Below are positions 142-13,332 of a stretch of 13,534 bases of DNA, in pieces. Each line of letters opens with the position of its first letter. Within the stretch, counting starts at the first letter, position 1. Under the pieces are notes generated by a model. The model did no database searches. It was not told the origin of the DNA and saw nothing but the letters and a program-made list of their open reading frames with translations. The translations under genes and the position numbers were made by a program. The DNA is from Planctomycetaceae bacterium (GTDB lineage Bacteria; Planctomycetota; Planctomycetia; Planctomycetales; Planctomycetaceae), in assembly GCA_020426085.1 (NCBI GenBank), contig JAGQQP010000054.1, positions 1-13,534 of the forward strand. The letters run 5' to 3'.

Positions 142-546
142 GTCAGGCTCCAGAAGAAAAAGGTTTGTGTTTTTTTGTGGTTGCTCTCGTTGAGACAATT
201 CCCTTACAAGCCCCCCTCTGAGTTGTGACACTCCAGAAGAGTTTTTTTCAGTTTTCCTGATGATTTGAGCCCAGTCCGAGGGAAGAATGCCCCGAATTCG
301 TTCTAGAAAACCAGTTTACCCAGCTCATTCCTGGATTAACCATAAGACGTAACTTCAAATAATATAGGCATTTAAAACATGCGTTTCATCAAAACTAACT
401 CATCCCCGCAAATTTAATCAGCCCGCGCAAGACTAGTTATGAAGAGAGTTTTGTACGGGAAGAGCCGGAATCTTTTCTGGTGTCGAATGACAGTGAGAGT
501 TGAAATGACTTTCATGTCAGGAGACCTTGAGAATCGCATGACAACC

Positions 547-576
547 TTGACTTTCCCTCGGGAATTTCAGTAAAGT
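547..576 (+). promoter_or_regulatory. Candidate sigma-70-type promoter of the PPC operon
   Basis: TTGACT (547-552) matches the -35 consensus at five of six positions. It is followed after 18 bases by TAAAGT (571-576), which matches TATAAT at four of six. The spacer contains the palindrome TTCCC-TC-GGGAA (553-564). The -10 hexamer is itself the left arm of the palindrome TAAAGT-AA-ACTTTA (571-584). Transcription would begin near 583 and give a leader of about 114 bases before GTG 697. The call rests on consensus resemblance only. Confidence 0.3.
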
Positions 577-595
577 AAACTTTAGAAATGATGTG
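569..595 (+). repeat. 27-base element, copy 1, with palindromic core
   Basis: This stretch contains GTAAACTTTA (575-584), five variable bases, then GATGTG (590-595). The same arrangement recurs at 13148-13174, and 22 of 27 bases agree without gaps. In this copy the core forms a perfect palindrome, TAAAGT-AA-ACTTTA (571-584), overlapping the candidate -10 box. Both copies lie upstream of rightward genes for exported proteins. It may be a binding site for a shared regulator, but AT-rich chance similarity is not excluded. Confidence 0.35.
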
Positions 596-682
596 CTCCT
601 ATGTATCAATGCCTCACAGCGATTTAATTGCTGAAAATCCCACCGAGGCCAATTCGACGCTGAAACTCGACCATAAAGAATT

Positions 683-688
683 GAGGAG
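683..688 (+). promoter_or_regulatory. Ribosome binding site fixing the GTG start of the PPC gene
   Basis: GAGGAG at 683-688 sits eight bases before GTG 697. An in-frame TGA at 682-684 forbids any longer reading, so GTG 697 is the first possible start, and it leads directly into a well-formed signal peptide. Confidence 0.7.
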
Positions 689-696
689 AGTCTATC

Positions 697-3243
697 GTGT
701 GTCCCTTGGGTCGATTCAGCCTGTTTGCTCTCAGCTATCTACTCCTGGTTGTGACATCCGCGTGGGCTGAGCTTCCTAATCCCGTCCTGAAATCAGTATT
801 TCCGCCAGGGGGACAGTCGGGGAGCACGATTGAGTTAACGGTGTCCGGTACTGGTTTGGATGAAGTTTCACGATTGATCTGCAGTCGGTCCGATATCGCA
901 TCTGAGAAAATTGAGAAGAACCGATTCCGCGTCAATATCCCCCAAAACATACCAGCGGGGTCCTATGATTTGCGGGTACTCTGTCGAAACGGATTGAGTT
1001 CACCGAGGACGTTCTTTGTTGGCAATCGATCTGATGTACTCGAAAGTGAACCAAACGAAACGTTTCAGTCTGCGCAAACTACTTCGCTGGACGTTTCGAT
1101 CAACGGCCGCATCCAAAAAAAAGGGGACATTGATTTATTTCAGTTTTTTGCCAATCAGGGACAAAGCGTCATCATCGAATGTCGGGCAGAACGACTCGAT
1201 TCAAGTCTGCGTGCGATATTAGAGTTATACGATTCCAGCGGGCGGCGGCTGGCCGTCAATCGAGGCTTTTTTGGAATTGATCCCTTGATCAATTTCAAAG
1301 TGCCCGCAGATGGCAACTATTTTGTCAAAGTGTTTGATCTCATCTATTCCGGAAGCTCTGACCATTTTTACCGGCTTGATATCGATACCGGTCCTCGCAT
1401 GTTGTTTACGGTTCCAGCGGCCATTCAACGCAGTACAACCTCACTGGTTTCGATTTATGGCTGGAACCTGGGAAATCTCAAACAGGAATCAAATCAGGAG
1501 ATCGCCAGCAGCAACTCACCCGAAATTGAGAGACGTCTTCTGGAACTGGGTGATGTCGAGCAGAAGCAACAACAGCAGGAAAAACGGAAAGATTCCTTAT
1601 CGGATAACGAATTCGAACGGCTCGATGTAACAATCACACATCCTGCGGAAAATTATGCCAATCCATTCCCCATTCGCAGACGCAGTAATCAGGCAGATAT
1701 GGATGGATTTGCTTTTCATTTCGCGAATTGCCACGCACCAATATCAATCGGATTAACGGATGTTCCTGTGATTCGTGAAAACGAAACACACCAGACACCC
1801 GGCACTGCCCAGGAAATACCTTGTCCCTCCGAAATCAGTGGTCAACTTATCGCGGGGGACGAGAGAGACTGGTATGCCATTCAAGCCAGACGAGGTGAGG
1901 TGCTCTGGATCGAAGCATTTGGTCAACGGATCAACTCGCCCGTTGATCTCGATGTAATTGTCATGGATGCTTTGGCAAAAAAGACTTTGAAACAGTTCAG
2001 TGATGAAGTAAAAAATAGCGAGGGGAAAAAATTTCCTTCCAGTCATCTTGATCCTGCCGGTAAATGGATTGTACCGGAGGATGGACGGTATTTGATCATG
2101 ATACAAAATATTCGTGGTGGCCTGGATGATGACCCCCGGCGTGTCTACCGATTCAGTCTCAGACGTCAGGACCCTGATTTTCACCTGGCAGTCGTCTCCC
2201 ATCAAGCGGAACCCGCTTCTCTCAACGTAAGACGCGGCGGTCGTGCTGTTTTGGATGTGACTGCTTTACGCAAACGGGGGATGACCGATTCCATTCGAGT
2301 GAGCGCCAATAACCTTCCTCAAGGAATTCGTTGTCCTGACGTCTGGTTGGGCCCGGGGGAAGATCGGGCATTGCTCACGGTGACCGCTGATGAGAATGCA
2401 TTATCTTATTGGGGAAATCTCAGTCTTACTGGTTTCTCTATGCAGAGCGGAACGAAAAAAGTTCGTGGCGGAACCGTCGTACGAACAGACTTGCCGAACG
2501 GATCAAGTCGGCTTACGACAGAAATCCCACTGGCAGTGACGGGAGAGGCTCCCTTTAGAATTACCGCGGATGGGCATGAAAAACGGAAGCATGATCTGTT
2601 TGGTGAGATGAATATTCGGCATGCTCCCGGTTCTGTTCTCGACGTTGCGGTTTTCCTTGACCGACGTAATCTCAGTGATAGAGAACCGGTACGACTGAAG
2701 GGAGTGGGGATGCCTGACATGATTCAAAATCAGACAGCCACGATCCCTGCCGGTAAAAACAAAGGTTATCTCAGTTTTTATTTACCGCCGTATCTGCCGG
2801 TCGGACAATATACAATCACAGTCCAGGCACAAGCTGAAGTCGCACAGAAGTCTGACACAAAGCAGAAACAGTCTCTTGTTGTCTTTAGTAACCCTGTGAC
2901 CTTTGAAGTGAAACCGGCCGCTTTTGTCGTCGCCGTCGATTCTGATGCCCCCCGAAAGATTCGACGCGGCGAAACAATCCAAGTGAAATATTCAGCAAAA
3001 CGGGTGAATGGTTTCATTAATAAAATTCACACCGAACTCGAAGCAGCCGACAAACTTGATGGGCTGCGAGTGCGGGGTGTCACTTTTGTCGGACAAAGTG
3101 ATCAGGGAACCCTCCAGATTATTGCGAATGATGATGCTCCTTTAGGAAAACAGCCTTTCATACGGTTGTCCGCTGTAGGGGTTGTAGAAGATCAGCCAGT
3201 GTATCACGGAAGTTGTTTCCTCGATCTGGAGATTACTGAGTAG
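697..3243 (+). CDS. Secreted PPC-domain / TIG-like beta-sandwich protein
   Basis: This encodes an 848-residue exported protein starting at GTG. Residues 1-24 form a Sec signal peptide (hydrophobic core LFALSYLLLVV, cleavage after SAWA). Residues about 28-110 look like an IPT/TIG-type immunoglobulin fold (VFPPGGQSGSTIELTVSG). Residues about 115-230 form a first PPC domain (ESEPNETFQSAQ, then GDIDLFQF). Residues about 232-260 resemble the start of a second TIG-like domain. After a polar, Gln-rich stretch (about 261-310), a second PPC domain covers about 360-490 (ENETHQTPGTAQ, then GDERDWYAI). The remaining 350 residues are beta-rich and probably Ig-like. PPC domains are non-catalytic, and I see no protease domain. 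In Planctomycetota such proteins commonly precede cytochrome/DUF1549/DUF1553 and DUF1501 genes, as here with a 26-base gap. I infer a structural or ligand-binding role at the cell surface or periplasm; the substrate is unknown. Confidence 0.85.
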   Translation: MCPLGRFSLFALSYLLLVVTSAWAELPNPVLKSVFPPGGQSGSTIELTVSGTGLDEVSRLICSRSDIASEKIEKNRFRVNIPQNIPAGSYDLRVLCRNGLSSPRTFFVGNRSDVLESEPNETFQSAQTTSLDVSINGRIQKKGDIDLFQFFANQGQSVIIECRAERLDSSLRAILELYDSSGRRLAVNRGFFGIDPLINFKVPADGNYFVKVFDLIYSGSSDHFYRLDIDTGPRMLFTVPAAIQRSTTSLVSIYGWNLGNLKQESNQEIASSNSPEIERRLLELGDVEQKQQQQEKRKDSLSDNEFERLDVTITHPAENYANPFPIRRRSNQADMDGFAFHFANCHAPISIGLTDVPVIRENETHQTPGTAQEIPCPSEISGQLIAGDERDWYAIQARRGEVLWIEAFGQRINSPVDLDVIVMDALAKKTLKQFSDEVKNSEGKKFPSSHLDPAGKWIVPEDGRYLIMIQNIRGGLDDDPRRVYRFSLRRQDPDFHLAVVSHQAEPASLNVRRGGRAVLDVTALRKRGMTDSIRVSANNLPQGIRCPDVWLGPGEDRALLTVTADENALSYWGNLSLTGFSMQSGTKKVRGGTVVRTDLPNGSSRLTTEIPLAVTGEAPFRITADGHEKRKHDLFGEMNIRHAPGSVLDVAVFLDRRNLSDREPVRLKGVGMPDMIQNQTATIPAGKNKGYLSFYLPPYLPVGQYTITVQAQAEVAQKSDTKQKQSLVVFSNPVTFEVKPAAFVVAVDSDAPRKIRRGETIQVKYSAKRVNGFINKIHTELEAADKLDGLRVRGVTFVGQSDQGTLQIIANDDAPLGKQPFIRLSAVGVVEDQPVYHGSCFLDLEITE

Positions 3244-3269
3244 TCTTTTAATTAGCGAATCGAAATCTT

Positions 3270-5549
3270 ATGTTCCGCTTCAATAAAATGTTGAACTTCA
3301 CAGAGTGGCACCCACTAGTTGCCTGGCTGATCGTCTGTGTGCTGATGCTCCTGAATGCCGATCTGCAGGCTACTGAGAACACAACTCGAATAAAACTAGA
3401 CCAGCCGGAACAGAAGATCTATTTTCTCACGGATGTGGTTCCTGTACTCACCAAGCTGAATTGCAACAGTGGCGGTTGTCATGGAAAGTCGACTGGCCAG
3501 AATGGTTTCAAGATTTCCTTATTGGGATTCGATCCTGAATTGGATTATGCTGCAATTTCTCTGGAAGCGCGAGGTCGGCGGATTTCTCCTGCAGATCCAG
3601 ATCGGAGTTTATTACTCTCAAAAGCAATCGGCAGAGTTCCGCACGGTGGTGGCAAGCTGCTGAAAATTGATTCAGAAGATTATAAAGTACTGCGCGAGTG
3701 GATTCGACAGGGGGCACCTGGCCCCGATCCTGATGCTCCGGTGCTTTTGCGTATCGATTTATCGCCAGGAGATCAGGTTTTAAAACAAAACTCAAATTTG
3801 AAATTACAAGTAGTCGCTCACTTTTCAGATGGTAGTCAGCGTGATGTGTCCCGTCAGGCAGTATACGAATCCAATTATCCCGAGGTCGCCACTATTGACA
3901 AGCAAGGCCTTGTGACGACTCAATCTCGTGGCGGACTGTTTGCCGTGATGGCTCGTTTTGGCGATCAAATCGCCGTGTTTCAAGGTGTCGTGCCTTATAA
4001 CTCATCAGAAGCCTCTCAGCACAAAGCATATCCGTCTCCTAGGAAACTCTCGAAAATTGACCAGCATCTGGTTGCGCAATGGAAAAAACTGGGGATCACG
4101 CCTTCGTCGCCGGCTGACGACGCGACTTTCATCCGTCGCGTAACGCTCGATATCTGCGGCACATTACCAACCGCTGATGAAGTGACTGCATATCTTTCGG
4201 ATACAAGCCCAGACAAACGACAGAGGTTAATCGATCGCCTGCTGGAGCGTCCTGAATACGCCAGTTATTTTGCTTTGAAATGGGCCGACATTTTACAAAA
4301 TCGTGGAAGTGGTTATTCCACCAGTAAGCAACGGGCGGGCACGATGCTGTTCTCAGCGTGGATTCGTGATTCCCTGTTATCCAATAAGCCATATGATCGC
4401 TTTGTCTCTGAAATTCTCACTGCCACGGGCAGTCAGGCAGAGAACCCGCCGGCAATCTGGTATCGATCAGTCCGTAACACTTCCAATTATGTGGAATCAA
4501 TCGCCCAGTGTTTTCTGGGAGTCAGAATTCAATGTGCTCAATGCCATCACCATCCAGCAGAACGCTGGAGCGAAAATGATTACTATGCATTCGCTGCCAT
4601 TTTTAGCCGCGTGGGTCGCAAGGGGGGATTTGCTGATGCGGAAGTCCCCACGAATGAAATCATTTACCTCAAAAATAAAGGTGATGTCCGAAATCCGCGA
4701 ACCCGGGAGCTGATGCAACCTCGTCCGCTGGGGGGACCTGACTTCTCAATTTCCCGCTTCGACGATCCGCGCCAGAGCCTGGCGAAATGGATGACAAGTC
4801 CGGAAAATCCGTTTTTTGCCCGCACAATGGTAAATCGAATGTGGGGACACTTTTTCGGTCGTGGAATTATTCATCCCATTGATGATGCACGCAGCACCAA
4901 CCCGCCCACAAATCCTGCATTGATCGAAGAATTGGCCCATGATTTTTCTACTAATGGCTATGACGTGAAAAGATTGATCCGGGTCATTACAAACTCCTCT
5001 GCTTACCAGCTTAGTTCCGTTCCCAATCAGACGAACCAGGAGGATACACAGTGCTTTGCCCGCTATTATCCGAAACGCCTTTCTGCCGAGATTCTTCTCG
5101 ATGGCATCAGTCAGGTTTTGGATGTTCCGACCATCTTTCCTGGTGGACCGGGGCAATTCCCCGAGGGAATGCGGGCTGTGAATTTGCCTGACGAGAATGT
5201 GCGATTGAATTTTCTGGACGCGTTTGGGCGCCCGTCTCGTACTTCTGCATGCGAATGCGAACGGACAGATGCCCCTGCTTTGTCACAAGCTCTCGAACTG
5301 GTCAATTCAAATGAGATCCAGCGGAAGATGACAGATAAAAACGGGTATGTCGAGAGACTCGGGACAAATACGAAATCGCATTCAGAAAATGTACGTGCTA
5401 TTTTTCTGCGGACATTTTCACGAAATCCACGTGCGGCAGAAGAAAAAATGGCCGTTGAATATCTGAATTCCGAAAAAAGCCGACAAGAGGGATATCGTTC
5501 GCTGTTGTGGGCACTCCTGGCCACGAATGAGTTTATGATGAATCATTAA
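3270..5549 (+). CDS. Planctomycete cytochrome-like / Big2 / DUF1549 / DUF1553 protein
   Basis: This encodes a 759-residue exported protein. A hydrophobic segment at about residues 15-30 followed by ADLQA is a likely signal peptide or anchor. Residues about 50-155 resemble the planctomycete cytochrome-type domain, but the heme-like motif is C65-NSGG-C70-H71, with four residues rather than two between the cysteines. Residues about 160-243 form a Big2-like domain (VVAHFSDGSQRDVSRQAVY). DUF1549 covers about 260-450 and contains a canonical c-type heme motif, C422-AQ-C425-H426-HHP. DUF1553 covers about 495-750 (NPFFARTMVNRMWGHFFGRG; PKRLSAEILLDGISQ). The family is thought to bind heme and may act in redox chemistry in the planctomycete periplasm; no reaction is established. 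The start is uncertain: neither ATG 3270 nor ATG 3288 has a clear Shine-Dalgarno, and translation may depend on the PPC gene ending 26 bases upstream. Confidence 0.88.
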   Translation: MFRFNKMLNFTEWHPLVAWLIVCVLMLLNADLQATENTTRIKLDQPEQKIYFLTDVVPVLTKLNCNSGGCHGKSTGQNGFKISLLGFDPELDYAAISLEARGRRISPADPDRSLLLSKAIGRVPHGGGKLLKIDSEDYKVLREWIRQGAPGPDPDAPVLLRIDLSPGDQVLKQNSNLKLQVVAHFSDGSQRDVSRQAVYESNYPEVATIDKQGLVTTQSRGGLFAVMARFGDQIAVFQGVVPYNSSEASQHKAYPSPRKLSKIDQHLVAQWKKLGITPSSPADDATFIRRVTLDICGTLPTADEVTAYLSDTSPDKRQRLIDRLLERPEYASYFALKWADILQNRGSGYSTSKQRAGTMLFSAWIRDSLLSNKPYDRFVSEILTATGSQAENPPAIWYRSVRNTSNYVESIAQCFLGVRIQCAQCHHHPAERWSENDYYAFAAIFSRVGRKGGFADAEVPTNEIIYLKNKGDVRNPRTRELMQPRPLGGPDFSISRFDDPRQSLAKWMTSPENPFFARTMVNRMWGHFFGRGIIHPIDDARSTNPPTNPALIEELAHDFSTNGYDVKRLIRVITNSSAYQLSSVPNQTNQEDTQCFARYYPKRLSAEILLDGISQVLDVPTIFPGGPGQFPEGMRAVNLPDENVRLNFLDAFGRPSRTSACECERTDAPALSQALELVNSNEIQRKMTDKNGYVERLGTNTKSHSENVRAIFLRTFSRNPRAAEEKMAVEYLNSEKSRQEGYRSLLWALLATNEFMMNH

Positions 5550-5585
5550 ACGCAGTGACTGGCAAAGTAAATATCAACAGACTTT

Positions 5586-5589
5586 GGAG
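5586..5589 (+). promoter_or_regulatory. Ribosome binding site that decides the DUF1501 start
   Basis: GGAG at 5586-5589 is nine bases upstream of ATG 5599. It overlaps the alternative in-frame TTG at 5584-5586, which has no comparable site upstream. The likelier start is therefore ATG 5599, five codons inside the longest open frame. Confidence 0.6.
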
Positions 5590-5598
5590 ACCGAGTTT

Positions 5599-6927
5599 AT
5601 GTTATCCGTTTCAGGCACGCGAAACTCCGACTATGACGGATTCAGCCGCCGTAATTTCCTGCATCTGGGAGCACCTGTTTTGGGACTGGGGCTTGCTGAT
5701 TTGTTAAAAATACGCGCATTGGCGAAAGAAACGGTCCGCCCCAAAACGAATAAGTCTTTGATAGTGTTCTGGACACATGGCGGGATGAGCCAGCAGGACA
5801 CGTACGATATGAAGCCAAACGCCCCCGCGGAATATCGCGGCATGTATCGTCCGATTGCAACTTCCGTTTCTGATATTCACGTGACAGAACGATTTCCGAT
5901 GCAGGCGAAAGTCATGCAGCATATTTCGCAAGTCAGGTCAGTCCATCATGAAAATGGTATTCACGCACCTTCTGCGCACTGGATGCAAACAGGTTATTTT
6001 GGCCCTACTTTGGCACGCAACGCGCCACAAAAACCGTCCTTTGGCTCCGTGATCGCGCGAACTGTAGGAGCTCACGCCAAGCATATGCCGCCTTATGTGA
6101 CGATCCCCAAGTCTGAAGCCTTTGGTTATCAGGGGGCCGTTTATCTGGGAAAATCATATAACCCGTTTGAAGTCGGCACAGATCCCAATTCAAAATACTT
6201 CAAAATCCCAAATCTGGCTCTACCAGAAGGATTGACTTTGAAAAGCGTCGAATCGCGACGTGAACTGCTTAAAAAGTTTGACACCCTGAACCGCGATGTC
6301 GACAAATCAGGAGTAATCGAAGGTCTGGACTCTTTCAAGACACAAGCATTAGAAATGGTGACAGGCGAACGAGTTCGCAAAGCCTTCGATTTGAGCAGTG
6401 AGGACACCAGACTCCGGGATCAGTATGGACGTCACAAATACGGCCAAAGTGCGCTCCTGGCCAGACGACTCGTCGAAGCAGGGAGTAGCTGTGTGACCAT
6501 CAACACCGGATACTGGGATCACCATGATGCGATTGAAAAAGGCCTCGAGGAACAATTACCCCCTTTAGACCGTGCGATTGCCACACTGATTCAGGATCTG
6601 GAACAACGTGGCATGCTGCAGGATGTTCTGATATTTTGTGCGGGTGAATTTGGTCGTACTCCCATGATCAATGGCCACGCCGGGAGGGATCACTGGTCGA
6701 ATTGCTTTACAGTGATGTTTGCCGGAGGAGGAATTGAGGGAGGACGCGTCGTCGGGGCCAGTGAAAAATTTGGTGGTGGAGTAGTAGAACGTAAAACGAC
6801 CCCGATGGATCTGCTGGCAACCATCTATCAAAAGCTGGGGATTCCTCTGGATACGCACTTCAATGATGCTTCCGGACGCCCCACAAGCATCATCGACACA
6901 GGACAACCCATTCGCGAGTTGTCTTGA
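5599..6927 (+). CDS. Tat-exported DUF1501 family protein
   Basis: From ATG 5599 this gives a 442-residue protein, a usual length for the family. The twin-arginine motif SRRNFL (residues 16-21, R17-R18) followed by a Gly/Leu-rich hydrophobic stretch (22-36) indicates Tat export, so the protein probably folds or loads a cofactor before crossing the membrane. DUF1501 proteins have a predicted alkaline-phosphatase/sulfatase-like fold. Visible family motifs are FWTHGGMSQQDTYDMKPNAP (57-76), SVHHENGIHAPSAHWMQTGY (114-133), GEFGRTPMINGHAGRDHWS (349-367) and GGGIEGGRVVGAS (376-388). The His/Asp-rich positions in these motifs are candidate metal ligands. The gene follows the DUF1549/DUF1553 gene after 49 bases, the standard planctomycete pairing, which suggests that the two act together outside the cytoplasm. 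The substrate is unknown. The longer TTG 5584 start would add five residues. Confidence 0.88.
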   Translation: MLSVSGTRNSDYDGFSRRNFLHLGAPVLGLGLADLLKIRALAKETVRPKTNKSLIVFWTHGGMSQQDTYDMKPNAPAEYRGMYRPIATSVSDIHVTERFPMQAKVMQHISQVRSVHHENGIHAPSAHWMQTGYFGPTLARNAPQKPSFGSVIARTVGAHAKHMPPYVTIPKSEAFGYQGAVYLGKSYNPFEVGTDPNSKYFKIPNLALPEGLTLKSVESRRELLKKFDTLNRDVDKSGVIEGLDSFKTQALEMVTGERVRKAFDLSSEDTRLRDQYGRHKYGQSALLARRLVEAGSSCVTINTGYWDHHDAIEKGLEEQLPPLDRAIATLIQDLEQRGMLQDVLIFCAGEFGRTPMINGHAGRDHWSNCFTVMFAGGGIEGGRVVGASEKFGGGVVERKTTPMDLLATIYQKLGIPLDTHFNDASGRPTSIIDTGQPIRELS

Positions 6928-7091
6928 CCGACGCCATGCTCTCAATCAGGGAAGACGGCAATTACCGGTATGCTGCAATCCGTCGGGTACAAAAAAATGT
7001 CGCCCGTTAAGTCCCGTAGTCAATTGATCTTTGAAGACAAAACCTTGTGAAAGAACTGACGGTGCAGTTTATCATGACATTTCAGATATTT

Positions 7092-7228: not shown

Positions 7229-9133
7229 CTACTTGAGAGGGATCTGAATTTCATAGTAGAGGGGATCGCCCGATTCCGACTGCATCGGATTGAAGTTTGA
7301 GGTAGACATTCGCCATTTCCAATTATCAAATACACGGCGAGAAGATTGATCTGGAATATCCTCAAAACCGGTAGCAACTGGCCGACAATCTTCTCCGTCT
7401 GAGGAATTAAGAGGTTCCATTCGCATATCAGAACGAAGAATACGGCGTTTCGCTTTCTCGCGCAGGCGTTCATAGAGAGGCTTGTGCGGCATCTCCCAGC
7501 GGTTTGCTACTGTCAGATGGCTCACGGGAATCATGGCAATAATATCTTCCATGAGTTCCAGTCCATAGGTAGTTCCATTTTGCCCTGATTCATCATCTTT
7601 GTTGTAATACCTCTTGACTGTCGCGTTATGGCTCCCATGGTGTCCGACTTTGTAGAGTCGTGTTCGCTTTAACAGATCGAGAGTATCAATGGTTTTGCCG
7701 TCGACTTGAAATTTAAGATTTCGCCAGGAAATCCAGTTTCCTACCTGAGCATCACCAACGAATAAAAAGACATCGCCTTCACCAGGATTACCAGTTTCCA
7801 GTGCGAGTACCAGAGAAGTATTGTTTGTGTCACTATCGAGATGTAAACCGAGTGTGTTTGCCGACATCAACCAGTCCGAATCAATTTTTCGCCAATCCTG
7901 CCCCTGAGCCTGGTAGTTTTGCTTTAGAAACGATCTGGCATCTTTCCACTTTTTTTTCAATTCTTTTTCCGATTCATCTTTCGATTGTTCTTTCGTTTTT
8001 TTGGGATATGGATTCAGATTTCCCCGAGAATTGATTTCCCACCCCAATTGATCGAATGGTTTGCGAATATAATCCGGAAGTCCACCATCGATACCCAAGG
8101 CAGGGCTATATGCAAAACCACTCAGGTTGGCAGAGGGTGTCAGGTACGTTTCGTGATAGGAAGAATGACCATGCTCATCCTTCTCGCCACGGACTTTCGT
8201 CGGCAGGTCTTTTTTCAGCAGTGTAACGTCAGTTGGCGGTCCCAGTACATACGCTCTTAACTGCGGTTGATTCATAATTGGAATCACTTCACCGGGAGTA
8301 CAATAGCAGGTGTGTTCTGCGCGTAAACGCAGCAGATTAATAGCGAATTCACACATCGTTGGTTCTGTCCGTTCCTGCTCCACACCAGCCTGTCCGGCAA
8401 AACCACCTGTTCCCTGACGTATTATCCCATCGCGTTCAATATCAACTGCTATTTGTTTATTTACTGGTCTGGACTTCAGCTCTTTGAAAATATCCTGCAA
8501 ATTTTCCGGTATATCATCCTCGGGAACTAAATGAAAATCGTGGACAGCTTTTAACTGCTGATAGGGAACATGCTCGTCAAGATTCACCGCTGTGCTTTTG
8601 AGAGATTCATATTTTTCCATTGCCTTGTCAATGATGTGGCGAGCTGTTCCATGCTTACTCCGCAGTGCATCAGCCACGTCGTCTCCGACTTTTTCTGTCC
8701 AGGCTGCATAGAATTTTTTAATCTTAAAACCACCATTAGTGTGTTCTTTCAGAAATGGAGATTTTTTCAGCACAAATCCCGAAAGATGGTCAACGTGCTC
8801 GTGCGTGCCTACAACTATATCAAGACAACCACCTGTAACCTCCCTGATATTTTTCATAACCTGGCGCAGGCGATCTCCTCCATTTTTCTGCCAGCTGTGC
8901 ACACCACAGTCAATCAGAATGTGGAAAGCATTTGGTTCTTCTTTCGGTTTTGTATTTTGTTCTTCTTTCTGCTTTATGGAAAGTAAAAAGCAATCCCCCA
9001 GACCCTGGCGGTACATCCTGATCTGTAATAGTCCTCCCTCTGATTCATCAGGTTTCAATTCACCCTGATCAGCAGCAGGCGATTGTCGAGTTTCCGTTGA
9101 ATCATGCTCTTTACGCGATTTATTTTGGGCCAT
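7229..9133 (-). CDS. ComEC/Rec2-type metallo-beta-lactamase-fold hydrolase, soluble
   Basis: From ATG 9133-9131 this gives a 634-residue protein with no signal peptide or membrane segment; a TTG one codon upstream is less likely. The charged N-terminus (1-34) is probably disordered. The fold begins at LLQIRMYRQGLGDCFLLSI (35-53). The strand HILIDCG (71-77) precedes the metal-binding signature T110-HEHVDH (H111, H113, D115, H116). Downstream are FVGDAQ (D461, likely bridging ligand) and KVGHHGSHNATVK (495-507; H498/H499), as in ComEC/Rec2-type domains. The 340 residues between the two halves are far more than the basic fold needs and include a Lys/Glu-rich, probably helical stretch (about 378-406). 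ComEC-type MBL domains are associated with phosphodiester or nucleic-acid cleavage, but the substrate here is unknown. It is the last gene of the cassette and overlaps the metallopeptidase stop by one base (TGATG), so translation is probably coupled. Confidence 0.85.
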   Translation of the reverse strand: MAQNKSRKEHDSTETRQSPAADQGELKPDESEGGLLQIRMYRQGLGDCFLLSIKQKEEQNTKPKEEPNAFHILIDCGVHSWQKNGGDRLRQVMKNIREVTGGCLDIVVGTHEHVDHLSGFVLKKSPFLKEHTNGGFKIKKFYAAWTEKVGDDVADALRSKHGTARHIIDKAMEKYESLKSTAVNLDEHVPYQQLKAVHDFHLVPEDDIPENLQDIFKELKSRPVNKQIAVDIERDGIIRQGTGGFAGQAGVEQERTEPTMCEFAINLLRLRAEHTCYCTPGEVIPIMNQPQLRAYVLGPPTDVTLLKKDLPTKVRGEKDEHGHSSYHETYLTPSANLSGFAYSPALGIDGGLPDYIRKPFDQLGWEINSRGNLNPYPKKTKEQSKDESEKELKKKWKDARSFLKQNYQAQGQDWRKIDSDWLMSANTLGLHLDSDTNNTSLVLALETGNPGEGDVFLFVGDAQVGNWISWRNLKFQVDGKTIDTLDLLKRTRLYKVGHHGSHNATVKRYYNKDDESGQNGTTYGLELMEDIIAMIPVSHLTVANRWEMPHKPLYERLREKAKRRILRSDMRMEPLNSSDGEDCRPVATGFEDIPDQSSRRVFDNWKWRMSTSNFNPMQSESGDPLYYEIQIPLK

Positions 9134-11421
9134 CAATATGCCTCATACTGTTCTGCGTGGCTATGCACAAATGACAATGCTTCGGATTGACGTTGCTGTT
9201 TCTGGGTCCGCTTTGACAGGCCAAAACGAACGATTGCCTGATACCCGTGAATTTCGATCTGCTTCCGATAAAACGCCATCTGATTTTGAATGCGGCGCTC
9301 ACTCAAAATATTTTTAACGATGCTGTATTCGATTACGCCCTGATCCGGATTGAGGATCAAACTACACCCTCCCCGATGGCGAAACGTCAGTTTCTCAGGT
9401 TCATCACGATCATAATGGTTGTAGTCCATCTGAACTCCGTATGTATCAAGCAGGGGCAAACGTATGCTTTGCGTCAGAATGACCAGCAGTTCCGTTTGAG
9501 TCCTGCCATCCTGATGAACTCTCGTCGTTGGCCGAAGAGAGAAGACTTCAATCGGAGGTTTTTTGTTTTGTTTATTGAATAACTCTGGAATCTTTACCTG
9601 GGTAATATCAAATCGGTCTTTAAGATAACGTCGAATATCTATTCCAAATGTCCCTGCAATTTCGTGAACCAGATTGTTAAGCTCCATATTTTCAGCTAGT
9701 TTGAGTGTAAGAAATCGATGTCGCAGCCATTGGTGAAGAAATTTCTTAAAGACTCGTTCATTGACAAAAATGGCTTCACGAATATCACGACCTGACATCC
9801 GGGCTTCACTTCCTACCCCCGTCCAGATCGCTTGCAAAAGTTTGTCTGCAGCCCGGTCAGCATCTTTTTCATCTCGTTTTCCTTCATAGGGATTGATCAT
9901 CAAAAAGATTTCATTCGCGACTTCCTGGCTTCTACTGTTATTCGGTGAGCTTGTCTTTGTTCTGTCAGATGGGGATACATCAGGCTCCTCTTCGTCTTCC
10001 TTCGGAACAAGATGATCGGCTAATTCTGACATTCCTCCTTCCGCCTGGTATAAACCTGCCATAGATCGCATCAGGTTACGAGGTGGTAAAAATCGATTGA
10101 GAGTTTGTGGATCCCAGTTTCGCTCCTTAAACCTGACCCAGTGTAAAGACTCTTCGCCCAGATTATTCACATCGTGAGGAAAGATCCCGCGCGCCCGGAA
10201 TGCTTCGATAAAAGCAATCCGGTACTTCGCTGCATCGTTAGGATACAAATCCGAATCCGCAGTAATGAGCGCGCGTAAATAATCTCCAAACGTGATATCG
10301 AGGGGAGGGAGATAGTCTATCGCCCGAATACAAATTCTGAGGACCCGTTCTGCTGCATGTGTTGCTTCTTCGGCAAAGCGATTCGTTAAGTCTGGATGAA
10401 TATCCCCATCCGGCAAAATACCAGTTCCATTGGTCGCAAGTCGACGTAAATCTCTGACCCGGTTCTCGAAGATTCGGATAAAAGCATCGAAAACAGCAGC
10501 TACCAGAATTGCGCCGCGCGCGTGAGGCTCAGTCGTACGACCGAGTTCTTTCGGGTTTGGAGCCTGCCTGTTTCCGAATTCATCGAATTGCCCTAACGCA
10601 TTGCGAAGTGCGCTACCTCTTCCCGTAGACCTTGCGAATTGAGCTGCCAGTTGTGCCAGAAGGTTGTTTTTCTGCAGATTACCACGAGTTTTTTGAATCT
10701 GATCGTTTAACAGATGGGGGATCGAAAAGTGCTGAAAAATAGCAACGATATCTGATAAGGCTTCATGAAATGCGAGCATGTCTGGATTTGAGACGGAGTC
10801 GAGCAAACGGCGATTGATCCCGTCGAGGATTGCGTGTGTAGTTTCATGCGCAATAATATCGTATGAGAGACATGTAAACACCAGACCGCCGGGAAGTTCC
10901 TCTCGTGGGTCATTCGTTTGAGCATTGAAATAGCCAAACAATAAAGCCACTTTAGCTGGAGAATAGTAAGCGTTATCTTGCCGTATCGCGTGAGGATAGA
11001 TCCTCAACTGGGGGACGAATCGTTTCTCAGTCTCTCTAATATAACCTCCTTCTTCGTCGATATAACGTTCTCGCCACAACATGCGACGTCCCAGGATTCG
11101 TTCAAAATTCTCAATCGTTTTCATCGCCACCGCATAAACCATCTGCTGATGAAATTGAGGATTACTCAATGACGGCGTATGTCCGTTATTTGCAAGAGAA
11201 CTCCGTGAATTCAAATCGACGGGAGAATATAACCGTCGGCTGGCCGGATCGATATCAATCACCTGTAAATACTCGCCAACGGGACCAGCTTCCAGTTCTT
11301 CCCAGCGAATGCTGAGTTCGGAAGTACTGATTTCGAAATTATCCAACTGAATGGCCATCGACGGATCGAGCGAATAGACACGCAGTTTCCGAATCGAAGG
11401 GGTATCAGAGAAACTGTTCAT
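9133..11421 (-). CDS. Thermolysin-like (M4-type) gluzincin metallopeptidase with extra C-terminal domain
   Basis: This encodes a 762-residue protein from ATG 11421. An in-frame TAA seven codons upstream restricts the start. Residues 192-196 read HETTH, the zinc-binding HEXXH, and HEALSD (219-224) supplies E220 as the probable third zinc ligand, matching NEAxSD in M4 peptidases. QDNAYYSP (148-155) matches the thermolysin substrate-binding Asn-Ala region, and H300 in EPHARGAI may correspond to the transition-state histidine. Unlike secreted M4 enzymes it has no signal peptide and no recognisable propeptide, so it is probably cytoplasmic. Residues about 471-500 form a polar acidic/Ser-rich linker leading to a C-terminal region (500-762) I do not recognise, perhaps for partner or substrate recognition. 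Spacing is 87 bases after the patatin gene, and the stop overlaps the MBL start. The nearest Shine-Dalgarno-like AGGA (11434-11437) is 12 bases away and weak. The substrate is unknown. Confidence 0.82.
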   Translation of the reverse strand: MNSFSDTPSIRKLRVYSLDPSMAIQLDNFEISTSELSIRWEELEAGPVGEYLQVIDIDPASRRLYSPVDLNSRSSLANNGHTPSLSNPQFHQQMVYAVAMKTIENFERILGRRMLWRERYIDEEGGYIRETEKRFVPQLRIYPHAIRQDNAYYSPAKVALLFGYFNAQTNDPREELPGGLVFTCLSYDIIAHETTHAILDGINRRLLDSVSNPDMLAFHEALSDIVAIFQHFSIPHLLNDQIQKTRGNLQKNNLLAQLAAQFARSTGRGSALRNALGQFDEFGNRQAPNPKELGRTTEPHARGAILVAAVFDAFIRIFENRVRDLRRLATNGTGILPDGDIHPDLTNRFAEEATHAAERVLRICIRAIDYLPPLDITFGDYLRALITADSDLYPNDAAKYRIAFIEAFRARGIFPHDVNNLGEESLHWVRFKERNWDPQTLNRFLPPRNLMRSMAGLYQAEGGMSELADHLVPKEDEEEPDVSPSDRTKTSSPNNSRSQEVANEIFLMINPYEGKRDEKDADRAADKLLQAIWTGVGSEARMSGRDIREAIFVNERVFKKFLHQWLRHRFLTLKLAENMELNNLVHEIAGTFGIDIRRYLKDRFDITQVKIPELFNKQNKKPPIEVFSLRPTTRVHQDGRTQTELLVILTQSIRLPLLDTYGVQMDYNHYDRDEPEKLTFRHRGGCSLILNPDQGVIEYSIVKNILSERRIQNQMAFYRKQIEIHGYQAIVRFGLSKRTQKQQRQSEALSFVHSHAEQYEAY
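9141..9144 (-). promoter_or_regulatory. Ribosome binding site of the MBL gene inside the peptidase gene
   Basis: GAGG on the minus strand (plus-strand CCTC at 9141-9144) lies seven bases before ATG 9133. It is inside the last codons of the metallopeptidase gene. It favours ATG 9133 over the adjacent TTG 9136 as the MBL start. Confidence 0.6.
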
Positions 11422-11492
11422 CAGCCGATTGTTTCCTGTTTACTTTGAATATCATAATCGAAAAAGTTACCTGCACTCTCATTCGCCAGTAC

Positions 11493-11506
11493 AGAATCGA
11501 AATTCT
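11493..11506 (-). other. Small hairpin with TTCG loop just after the patatin stop
   Basis: On the minus strand AGAAT-TTCG-ATTCT begins two bases after the patatin TGA (11511-11509) and forms a five-base-pair stem with a UUCG loop. The closing pair is U-A, so it is not the extra-stable C(UUCG)G form. It lies in the 87-base gap before the metallopeptidase gene and lacks a U-tract. It may affect mRNA processing or ribosome spacing, or it may be chance. Confidence 0.25.
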
Positions 11507-11508
11507 TA

Positions 11509-12690
11509 TCACCCCAATCCGGCCTGCGGAAAAGGGAAGTCGGATGGTTTTTTATAACCTGGGTCAGGTAGATGTTTCCGAATCGCAGCGTCACAAACCG
11601 CGTATCCCCAATTCATCAGGCGCTGCCGAATAATGGGTTTTAATTTGCCGAGTCGCGTATCGATTCTGGCCAGATCGGTCGTTTTTCCGAAATCGCATTT
11701 GAGAGAGTTAGACAGTTTATAATTCGATATGTCAGTATGGATTCCCCAATATGTTCCCTGATGAGGGTCTGCGGGATTTTTAAAATCTTCGATAACAATA
11801 CGACGTCGCAGACTGCATACCTGGTGTTGGAGCAAATCGATCAGCCGTCGAGAATGCCGTGCCCAGTCATCTTTGGGATTCAAATCGTCTGCCATGTTCT
11901 GCCCCCCATCACTGATCAATACCGTTTTATATCGCTTATAAACGGTTTCTAAACCGAGGTTGTCATATACCCCTCCATCTGTGAGAACTGCATCGGTCCG
12001 CAGTTGTTTCACAGTCGAAGTCAGTTTGGAGGGAACGCCTGGTTTGAATCGAAAGCGATCCAGTGGCAATCGAAGTGGTGACAGAAAGGGAGGAAAGGCA
12101 GAGGACGCTGCTACAGCGGTCGCCACAGGTATATCAGGCTTCAATATCATTCCCACTCGATAGTCAGCCATATATGGTTTTGAGAATCGCCATACAGAAC
12201 CGGTTTTGACATTGGTTGCATTGAAGACAAATCGTGGTTTATCTGGCAGGTCCTGCAAAGACATTCCCTGGAAAAGTAGTTCGTCGTAAGAGCTGGCTAC
12301 TTCGTCACTGATGTCTGACCAGGGATTGATAGCCCCCCAGGCAACTGCAGAATAATCAATCGTATGATTTGCGAATTCGCAAATCGGTTCGACCACATTC
12401 TCCAGCATGCTTGCATTGCTGAAATGATCACTTTTCAGGGTATTCCATTGAAGTCCTAACCAGGCATTGGTAATTGATCCCCCCGAAACACTTGAGATTC
12501 GATCAACCTGCTCCAGTAATCCCAGTTCGTTGAGCCGAATCAGTGCACCAAGATGAAAGATCGCGGCACGGTTGCCCCCACCTGATAAACAGAGGCCGAT
12601 TCCATCTTCAAGCTTCGATGGTGCTTCATCCTCATGAAGCGGGGTTTGTCCATCAATGGATTCTTCCTGATGATTCACTGGTGATTGCAT
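11509..12690 (-). CDS. Patatin / cPLA2-like phospholipase
   Basis: This encodes a 393-residue acyl hydrolase starting at ATG 12690 with a strong AAGGGG six bases upstream. After an acidic, probably flexible N-terminus (1-29), LCLSGGGNRAAIFHLGAL (33-50) provides the glycine-rich oxyanion-hole motif. ISSVSGGS (65-72) is the nucleophile elbow with S69 as the catalytic serine; the first glycine of GXSXG is replaced by serine. LTDGGVYDNLG (236-246) supplies the catalytic aspartate D238, completing the Ser-Asp dyad. ATAVAASSAFPPFLSP (190-205) is also typical of the family. There is no signal peptide or membrane segment, so it should act from the cytoplasmic side, for example on inner-membrane phospholipids. 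It is the first gene of the leftward cassette. In bacteria, cytosolic patatins can be membrane-degrading effectors such as CapV in CBASS. An immune role here is only inferred, because no cyclase or sensor is present in the window. Confidence 0.9.
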   Translation of the reverse strand: MQSPVNHQEESIDGQTPLHEDEAPSKLEDGIGLCLSGGGNRAAIFHLGALIRLNELGLLEQVDRISSVSGGSITNAWLGLQWNTLKSDHFSNASMLENVVEPICEFANHTIDYSAVAWGAINPWSDISDEVASSYDELLFQGMSLQDLPDKPRFVFNATNVKTGSVWRFSKPYMADYRVGMILKPDIPVATAVAASSAFPPFLSPLRLPLDRFRFKPGVPSKLTSTVKQLRTDAVLTDGGVYDNLGLETVYKRYKTVLISDGGQNMADDLNPKDDWARHSRRLIDLLQHQVCSLRRRIVIEDFKNPADPHQGTYWGIHTDISNYKLSNSLKCDFGKTTDLARIDTRLGKLKPIIRQRLMNWGYAVCDAAIRKHLPDPGYKKPSDFPFPQAGLG

Positions 12691-13198: not shown

Positions 13199-13263
13199 CT
13201 GGACCACTAAACACTTCTAGATTGTGTCCAGTTTTACAATAGCGTTTCCAGGGAAATCTGGAC
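13199..13263. repeat. Alternating CTGGAC / GTCCAG / CTGGAC repeats
   Basis: CTGGAC (13199-13204), GTCCAG (13226-13231) and CTGGAC (13258-13263) can form two mutually exclusive six-base-pair stems. A third option is TCCAG/CTGGA (13247-13251 and 13258-13262) with a six-base loop. The block lies 70 to 134 bases before the start at 13333 and could be a switchable leader structure if transcribed. Without a mapped promoter this is tentative. Confidence 0.25.
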
Positions 13264-13332
13264 TAAGTAGATTCGATTGCGAGACGCTATATTTTAATGT
13301 GATGCGCTCTAGTCAAACTGGAGAATTGAGAA

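Follow-up and report, generated by a model that had tools for sequence, protein, structure and literature searches.

A cytoplasmic metallopeptidase-MBL gene pair with exchangeable lipases, a candidate two-step killing module found in a planctomycete

Three hydrolase genes of a Planctomycetaceae bacterium raise the question of what a phospholipase, a peptidase and an MBL hydrolase might do as one unit. They lie within a window of 13,534 nucleotides, by which the whole stretch of DNA analysed is meant (contig JAGQQP010000054.1). An earlier note on this DNA had proposed an effector cassette in which the peptidase activates or restrains the other enzymes. The underlying observation was confirmed and is stronger for the peptidase-MBL pair than had been stated; the interpretation as a whole is partly supported.

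Gene layout and predicted enzymes

All three genes (patatin, metallopeptidase and MBL hydrolase) are intact and co-oriented, with the catalytic motifs read in the earlier note (S69/D238, HETTH with a downstream Glu, THEHVDH and HHGSH). The following features were assigned:

11509..12690, minus strand: patatin-like phospholipase, 393 aa (PF01734 and motifs)
12484-12486, minus strand: codon of the patatin nucleophile S69 (motif)
11977-11979, minus strand: codon of patatin D238 (motif)
9133..11421, minus strand: cytoplasmic metallopeptidase, 762 aa
10147..11391, minus strand: M36/M4-fold catalytic domain of the peptidase, residues 11-425
10834-10848, minus strand: HETTH motif of the peptidase
9136..9942, minus strand: C-terminal module of the peptidase, residues 494-762 (modelled helices and strands)
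7229..9136, minus strand: ComEC-type MBL hydrolase, 635 aa (634 if the start is the ATG at 9133)
8786..8806, minus strand: THEHVDH metal motif, MBL residues 111-117
7628..7642, minus strand: HHGSH motif, MBL residues 499-503
8357..8596, minus strand: MBL insert 1, residues 181-260 (low pLDDT)
8399-8401, minus strand: codon of F246, before which a cut in insert 1 is predicted (conservation)
7937..8206, minus strand: MBL insert 2, residues 311-400 (low pLDDT)
8156-8158, minus strand: codon of Y327, before which a cut in insert 2 is predicted (conservation)

The peptidase and MBL genes overlap at the TGATG junction noted earlier, the patatin and peptidase genes are separated by an 87-bp gap, and the N-termini are not hydrophobic, in agreement with the reported absence of signal peptides. 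Left of the cassette, the plus strand carries PSCyt2/PSD1 and DUF1501 genes of a type frequent in planctomycetes, and the contig ends 844 bp past the patatin start. No sensor gene was visible within the window, no cyclase (CD-NTase) was present among its long ORFs, all of which were accounted for, and no Rfam family matched anywhere in it.

The peptidase carries HExxH and a downstream Glu on a thermolysin-like fold, as expected for M4/M36. The fold was assigned as M36/M4 with VIA-align, on which the call rests, Foldseek having returned no significant match; among the homologues listed, relatives carry a PF01447 (Peptidase_M4) annotation, and PADLOC models gave no match. The main structural matches end near residue 425, and the C-terminal module, which lies outside them, could be a sensing or docking part. 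Classical M4/M36 enzymes are secreted and made with a signal and a propeptide. The window peptidase resembles them in fold and motif but shows no such signal or propeptide: its N-terminus has no hydrophobic stretch and the catalytic domain starts near residue 11.

The peptidase family comprises at least 7997 protein clusters. When eight peptidases (six long forms, one tandem, one short) were scanned for extra domains, an N-terminal subtilase (PF00082) was detected on five and an alpha/beta-hydrolase match below cut-offs on another (L054). The subtilase-fused genes (L158:6717-9815, L079:8279-11902, L009:6331-10173, L047:3056-6901 and L129:8785-12492), with the S8 part N-terminal, are named 'S8 family serine peptidase' in database records, which overlook the metallopeptidase half. 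Two zinc motifs were present in 77 of the 118 long homologues among the matches listed, which include tandem double peptidases such as P0002. The first motif lacks the catalytic Glu in 26 of these 77, and this copy looks like an inactive regulatory one.

The MBL hydrolase is of the ComEC type with intact metal-binding motifs. Previously taken for a probable phosphoester hydrolase, it is instead best read as a nuclease from its predicted fold, since the best structural match of the model is the ComEC nuclease domain; a ComEC C-terminal domain is a demonstrated nuclease (PMC8579336). A complete ComEC was ruled out (NCBIfam ComEC E 0.084), since the membrane part is absent. Compared with the ComEC C-terminal domain, the window protein has about 260 more residues between the motifs, and HxHxDH where ComEC 9ic4 has HPDADH. 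The distance between its motif-II and motif-V histidines is 387 residues (278-387 in 58 relatives, median 314), against 127 in 9ic4 as counted on an alignment that is weak in its second part. Most of the additional residues lie within the two low-confidence inserts, whose low pLDDT may also stem from a shallow alignment. Among the 41 positions with pLDDT <50 in residues 181-400, the two most aromatic are 246 (F 45, L 10, M 2, N 1 of 58 relatives) and 327 (Y 44, F 13, R 1). Thermolysin-type enzymes favour cutting before aromatic or hydrophobic residues, and cleavage is predicted, from conservation, perhaps before F246 and Y327.

In PADLOC, the window MBL and all eight relatives scanned matched the LmuA and DRT-MBL models, the window MBL weakly. 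The PDC-M48B models matched six of these relatives and, weakly, one part only of the window MBL (E 0.029). Scores against Avs1a (NCBIfam NF041809, 30.9 bits) and 6A-MBL (22.2 bits) lay far under the cut-offs of 420 bits and 220, respectively, and none of 289 genomes yielded a reference Avs1a above cut-off for an alignment of the inserts.

The patatin matched PF01734 well above threshold (E 4e-21, 76.5 bits, cut-off 27.7) and has the Ser-Asp pair S69 and D238. CapV-type patatins are CBASS effectors, and the window patatin is likewise a phospholipase in a presumed suicide module. Unlike CBASS, however, the window holds no cyclase, and the patatin matched no PADLOC model; membership in CBASS/CapV was ruled out on these two grounds.

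Linkage and spread of the peptidase-MBL pair

The linkage was assessed in 114 loci, made up of 80 named-genome loci, 20 regions of the genome that holds the window and of others in its family, and 17 plasmid stretches (drawn from 59 plasmids with a match), minus three duplicates. Because the named-genome loci are the best 80 of 271 confirmed, the sample is biased to close relatives of the window peptidase. An MBL gene lies directly downstream of the peptidase gene on the same strand in 108 of the 114 loci, over many phyla; the genes are thus not neighbours in one species only. In four of the remaining loci (L029, L037, L052, L057) the contig ends about 0.5 kb or less from the peptidase, in L137 the peptidase is truncated, and L061 has no MBL in the following 3.1 kb. 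A stricter first count gave 92/100, and a count of MBL-family ORFs directly behind the peptidase 109/115 in the same stretches. Peptidase and MBL distances were correlated (r 0.68, n=84, shared ancestry left in; highest of 2000 permutations 0.24). The pairing is near-obligate.

The linked trio of the earlier note held for this pair and not for the patatin, which 32 of the 114 loci have no more than 4.5 kb away. A Tle1-like lipase, never together with a patatin, was nearby in ten loci (in L012 a PF09994 protein, T6SS Tle1-like, adjoins the pair), and neither was found nearby in 72. These counts are rough, since the annotated patatin of L161 was missed; moreover, the lipase profiles were built from members of the same loci, some matches, as in L051 and L072, are weak or incomplete, and in L033, L058 and L163 the match is to the other strand. 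On the 84-row tree, patatin presence changes at least 18 times, which indicates that the lipase is gained and lost around a stable pair. The invariant unit is peptidase plus MBL, with the patatin as one of several exchangeable lipases.

The 84 pairs of this tree comprise Bacteroidota (29), Planctomycetota (18, with family genomes so entered by our own label), Acidobacteriota (12), Pseudomonadota (12), Chloroflexota (4), Verrucomicrobiota (4), Thermodesulfobacteriota (2), Myxococcota (1) and two unplaced pairs; the pair is also carried by a Deinococcus plasmid. The peptidase was matched in 19/170 genomes of the family, 3/17 of the window's genus, 10/294 drawn across the phylum and 4/36 in the genus of L016 (Spirosoma). 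The window copy pairs with a Phycisphaerae sequence (100*), and two same-genus homologues sit in a different starred clade. A vertical core gene, the inheritance that by the earlier note would have refuted its proposal, was rejected on this patchiness and tree placement: the cassette is patchy and spreads horizontally. In the sibling genome G039, the DUF1501 gene is 97% identical to that of the window, and the DNA matches window positions 501-6980 at 93%, ending 53 bp past the DUF1501 stop codon. Other genes follow past this break point, and the peptidase was not found in the G039 genome (92% complete). Matches to the peptidase were obtained in 59 of 72,556 plasmid records. Phage-borne cargo was rejected, with matches in 2 of 50,697 phage records and no confirmed IMG/VR stretch (21 matched a pattern, two peptide patterns being used).

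Genomic neighbourhoods and comparison with known systems

Defence genes were scored by hand from annotation names on 12 plasmids, in about 17 kb round the peptidase and in 17 kb elsewhere on the same plasmid, with control stretches picked by coordinate; five of the 17 cassette stretches were without a control and left uncounted. By a strict list (CBASS/SAVED, SIR2, DUF1837, restriction, Shedu, toxin-antitoxin, caspase/CHAT), composed like the broader one after the cassette stretches were known, 5/12 cassette stretches (L157, L158, L162, L174, L177) and 4/12 controls (L184, L186, L188, L194) were positive, which is no enrichment. The broader list (adding ThiF/ubiquitin, DEAD helicase, PD-(D/E)XK, MoxR, non-specific nuclease and PLD) gave 11/12 and 4/12, a post hoc comparison that for this reason is not used as proof.

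The proposed defence link, which this strict count does not bear out, is suggestive in single loci. A TIR+SLOG protein cut by the contig end lies directly behind the MBL in L142:3-1787, SIR2+AAA is found by the pair in L021, and in L024 a PLD protein gene precedes the pair and a DEAD helicase gene follows it. A cyclase is near the cassette in 2/17 plasmid stretches. On plasmids of two genera (L162:9869-15160 and L174:13869-19087), patatin, peptidase and MBL genes are followed on the same strand, after 114-130 bp, by genes for DUF1837 and a DEAD helicase. If DUF1837 is HamA, the cassette stands directly ahead of a Hachiman-like pair, and the order equals the nuclease-HamA-HamB order given in PMC12799240.

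Could the genes simply form an ordinary stress, lipid-turnover or nutrient-scavenging operon of hydrolases with no role in conflict? The flat strict count would suit such an operon, as would several metabolic-looking neighbourhoods (L031, L179, L181), with GMC oxidoreductase, PhoD phosphatase, cytochrome oxidase or transporter genes beside the cassette. However, the patchiness in two genera (3/17 and 4/36), the plasmid carriage, the placement of same-genus homologues in another clade and the lack of a signal peptide for extracellular feeding argue against it, and we consider this reading unlikely.

The closest published parallels are the pairs of MBL nuclease and trypsin-like protease in Hachiman (HamM), AVAST type 1 (Avs1a/Avs1b), Lamassu and DRT (Tuck et al. 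2025, PMC12799240). According to that paper, these MBL proteins are pro-nucleases with two disordered gating inserts, and the partner protease cuts at one conserved residue per insert to yield a DNase. The window cassette shares with them a ComEC-like MBL adjoining a protease gene in the same unit (the 108 of 114 loci above), extra flexible MBL inserts, a patchy, horizontally moved distribution and weak profile matches to LmuA, Avs1a and RTasMBL. It differs in that its protease is an M36/M4-fold metallopeptidase encoded by a free-standing gene upstream of the MBL, whereas the trypsin-like systems usually place the nuclease gene first and carry the protease in fusion with a defence enzyme, and in that a lipase is often attached. 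Canu (caspase-nuclease), described in the same paper, has a similar layout, with the protease gene upstream, the gated MBL downstream and variable accessory genes, but the metallopeptidase replaces the caspase and no CanB-like partner was identified at the cassette. Since its partner is neither trypsin-like nor a caspase, the cassette is classed as varying their theme and not as belonging to them.

The same paper mentions that proteases of 'other diverse families' also accompany homologues of the nucleases, so that the metallopeptidase-MBL pair may appear in its supplement; metalloprotease, metallopeptidase, patatin and phospholipase are absent from the main text. The PDC-M48 candidates of PADLOC also touch the MBL by model match, and their name suggests an M48 metallopeptidase partner. 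The window peptidase is without a PADLOC match, and the window MBL matches these models weakly and in one part. No paper was found under the name PDC-M48B, nor one on a metallopeptidase-MBL-patatin system in the open-access journal articles searched.

Proposed mechanism and competing explanations

The joint travel of peptidase and MBL across many unrelated bacteria suggests a self-destruct switch, perhaps against viruses. Most likely, the cassette follows the known nuclease-protease theme with a metallopeptidase in the protease role, and an exchangeable lipase adds a second output. With moderate confidence, we favour a cytoplasmic, horizontally spreading two-step killing module of peptidase, gated MBL pro-nuclease and exchangeable lipase. 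Its core would be the soluble M36/M4-fold metallopeptidase and the adjoining ComEC-type pro-nuclease, in which the two flexible, gate-like inserts would probably cover the active site. A trigger, perhaps phage infection, would render the peptidase active, which would cut the inserts, perhaps at the two predicted sites, and release the DNase. The patatin would provide a second lethal output, membrane attack, whether the peptidase switches it on as well or it works alongside, and another lipase would take its place in other bacteria. The infected cell would die or arrest. Gene order, catalytic motifs, predicted folds, the near-obligate pairing, lipase exchange and patchiness are what the data show; proteolytic activation, DNase activity, the trigger and the antiphage role we infer. 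The activating function that the earlier note had offered gains weight from the analogue in PMC12799240 and from the gate-like inserts. Against the module stand the low Avs1a and 6A-MBL scores, the flat strict count, the lack of a visible sensor gene in the window, the metabolic-looking neighbourhoods and the 72 loci where neither a patatin nor a Tle1-like lipase was found nearby.

A wider version, held more tentatively, is that a large unnamed class of suicide modules exists in which a cytoplasmic M36/M4-fold metallopeptidase switches both a gated ComEC-like DNase and an exchangeable phospholipase, destroying genome and membrane; the longer proteins, with a subtilase fused on or the peptidase present twice, would then act as protease relays. 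If the favoured module is right, gating of death nucleases by proteolysis would extend past trypsin-like and caspase partners to metallopeptidases, a lipase controlled together with the nuclease would combine outputs in a new way, and a likely function could be given to thousands of genes that at present bear the label 'hypothetical' or 'S8 family'. The idea is directly testable on F246, Y327 and the active sites.

The peptidase might instead restrain, degrading MBL and lipase so that killing follows once infection blocks it, as in a toxin-antitoxin pair. Near-obligate pairing and TGATG coupling would also suit an enzyme with its restrainer, but the analogues in PMC12799240 work the opposite way, the protease activating the nuclease, and the gate-like inserts would be left without a role; this is quite improbable. 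Least probable is a toxin set against competitors, delivered by a secretion system or by lysis: Tle1-like lipases, named after a type VI effector family (PF09994, L012), and the joint occurrence of enzymes degrading DNA, protein and lipid would fit it, but the proteins are without a signal peptide and no secretion-system gene is annotated in the 17 plasmid cassette stretches, a T6SS cluster being seen in one control stretch only.

A minor observation concerns the right end of the window, where positions 13216-13313 hold a dispersed repeat of about 96 bp without an Rfam match. Many copies, about 77-85% identical, are present in the window's genome and in further genomes of its genus, with at least 30 places scored in several of these genomes, and the 835-bp query found some match in 15 of the 17 genus genomes.
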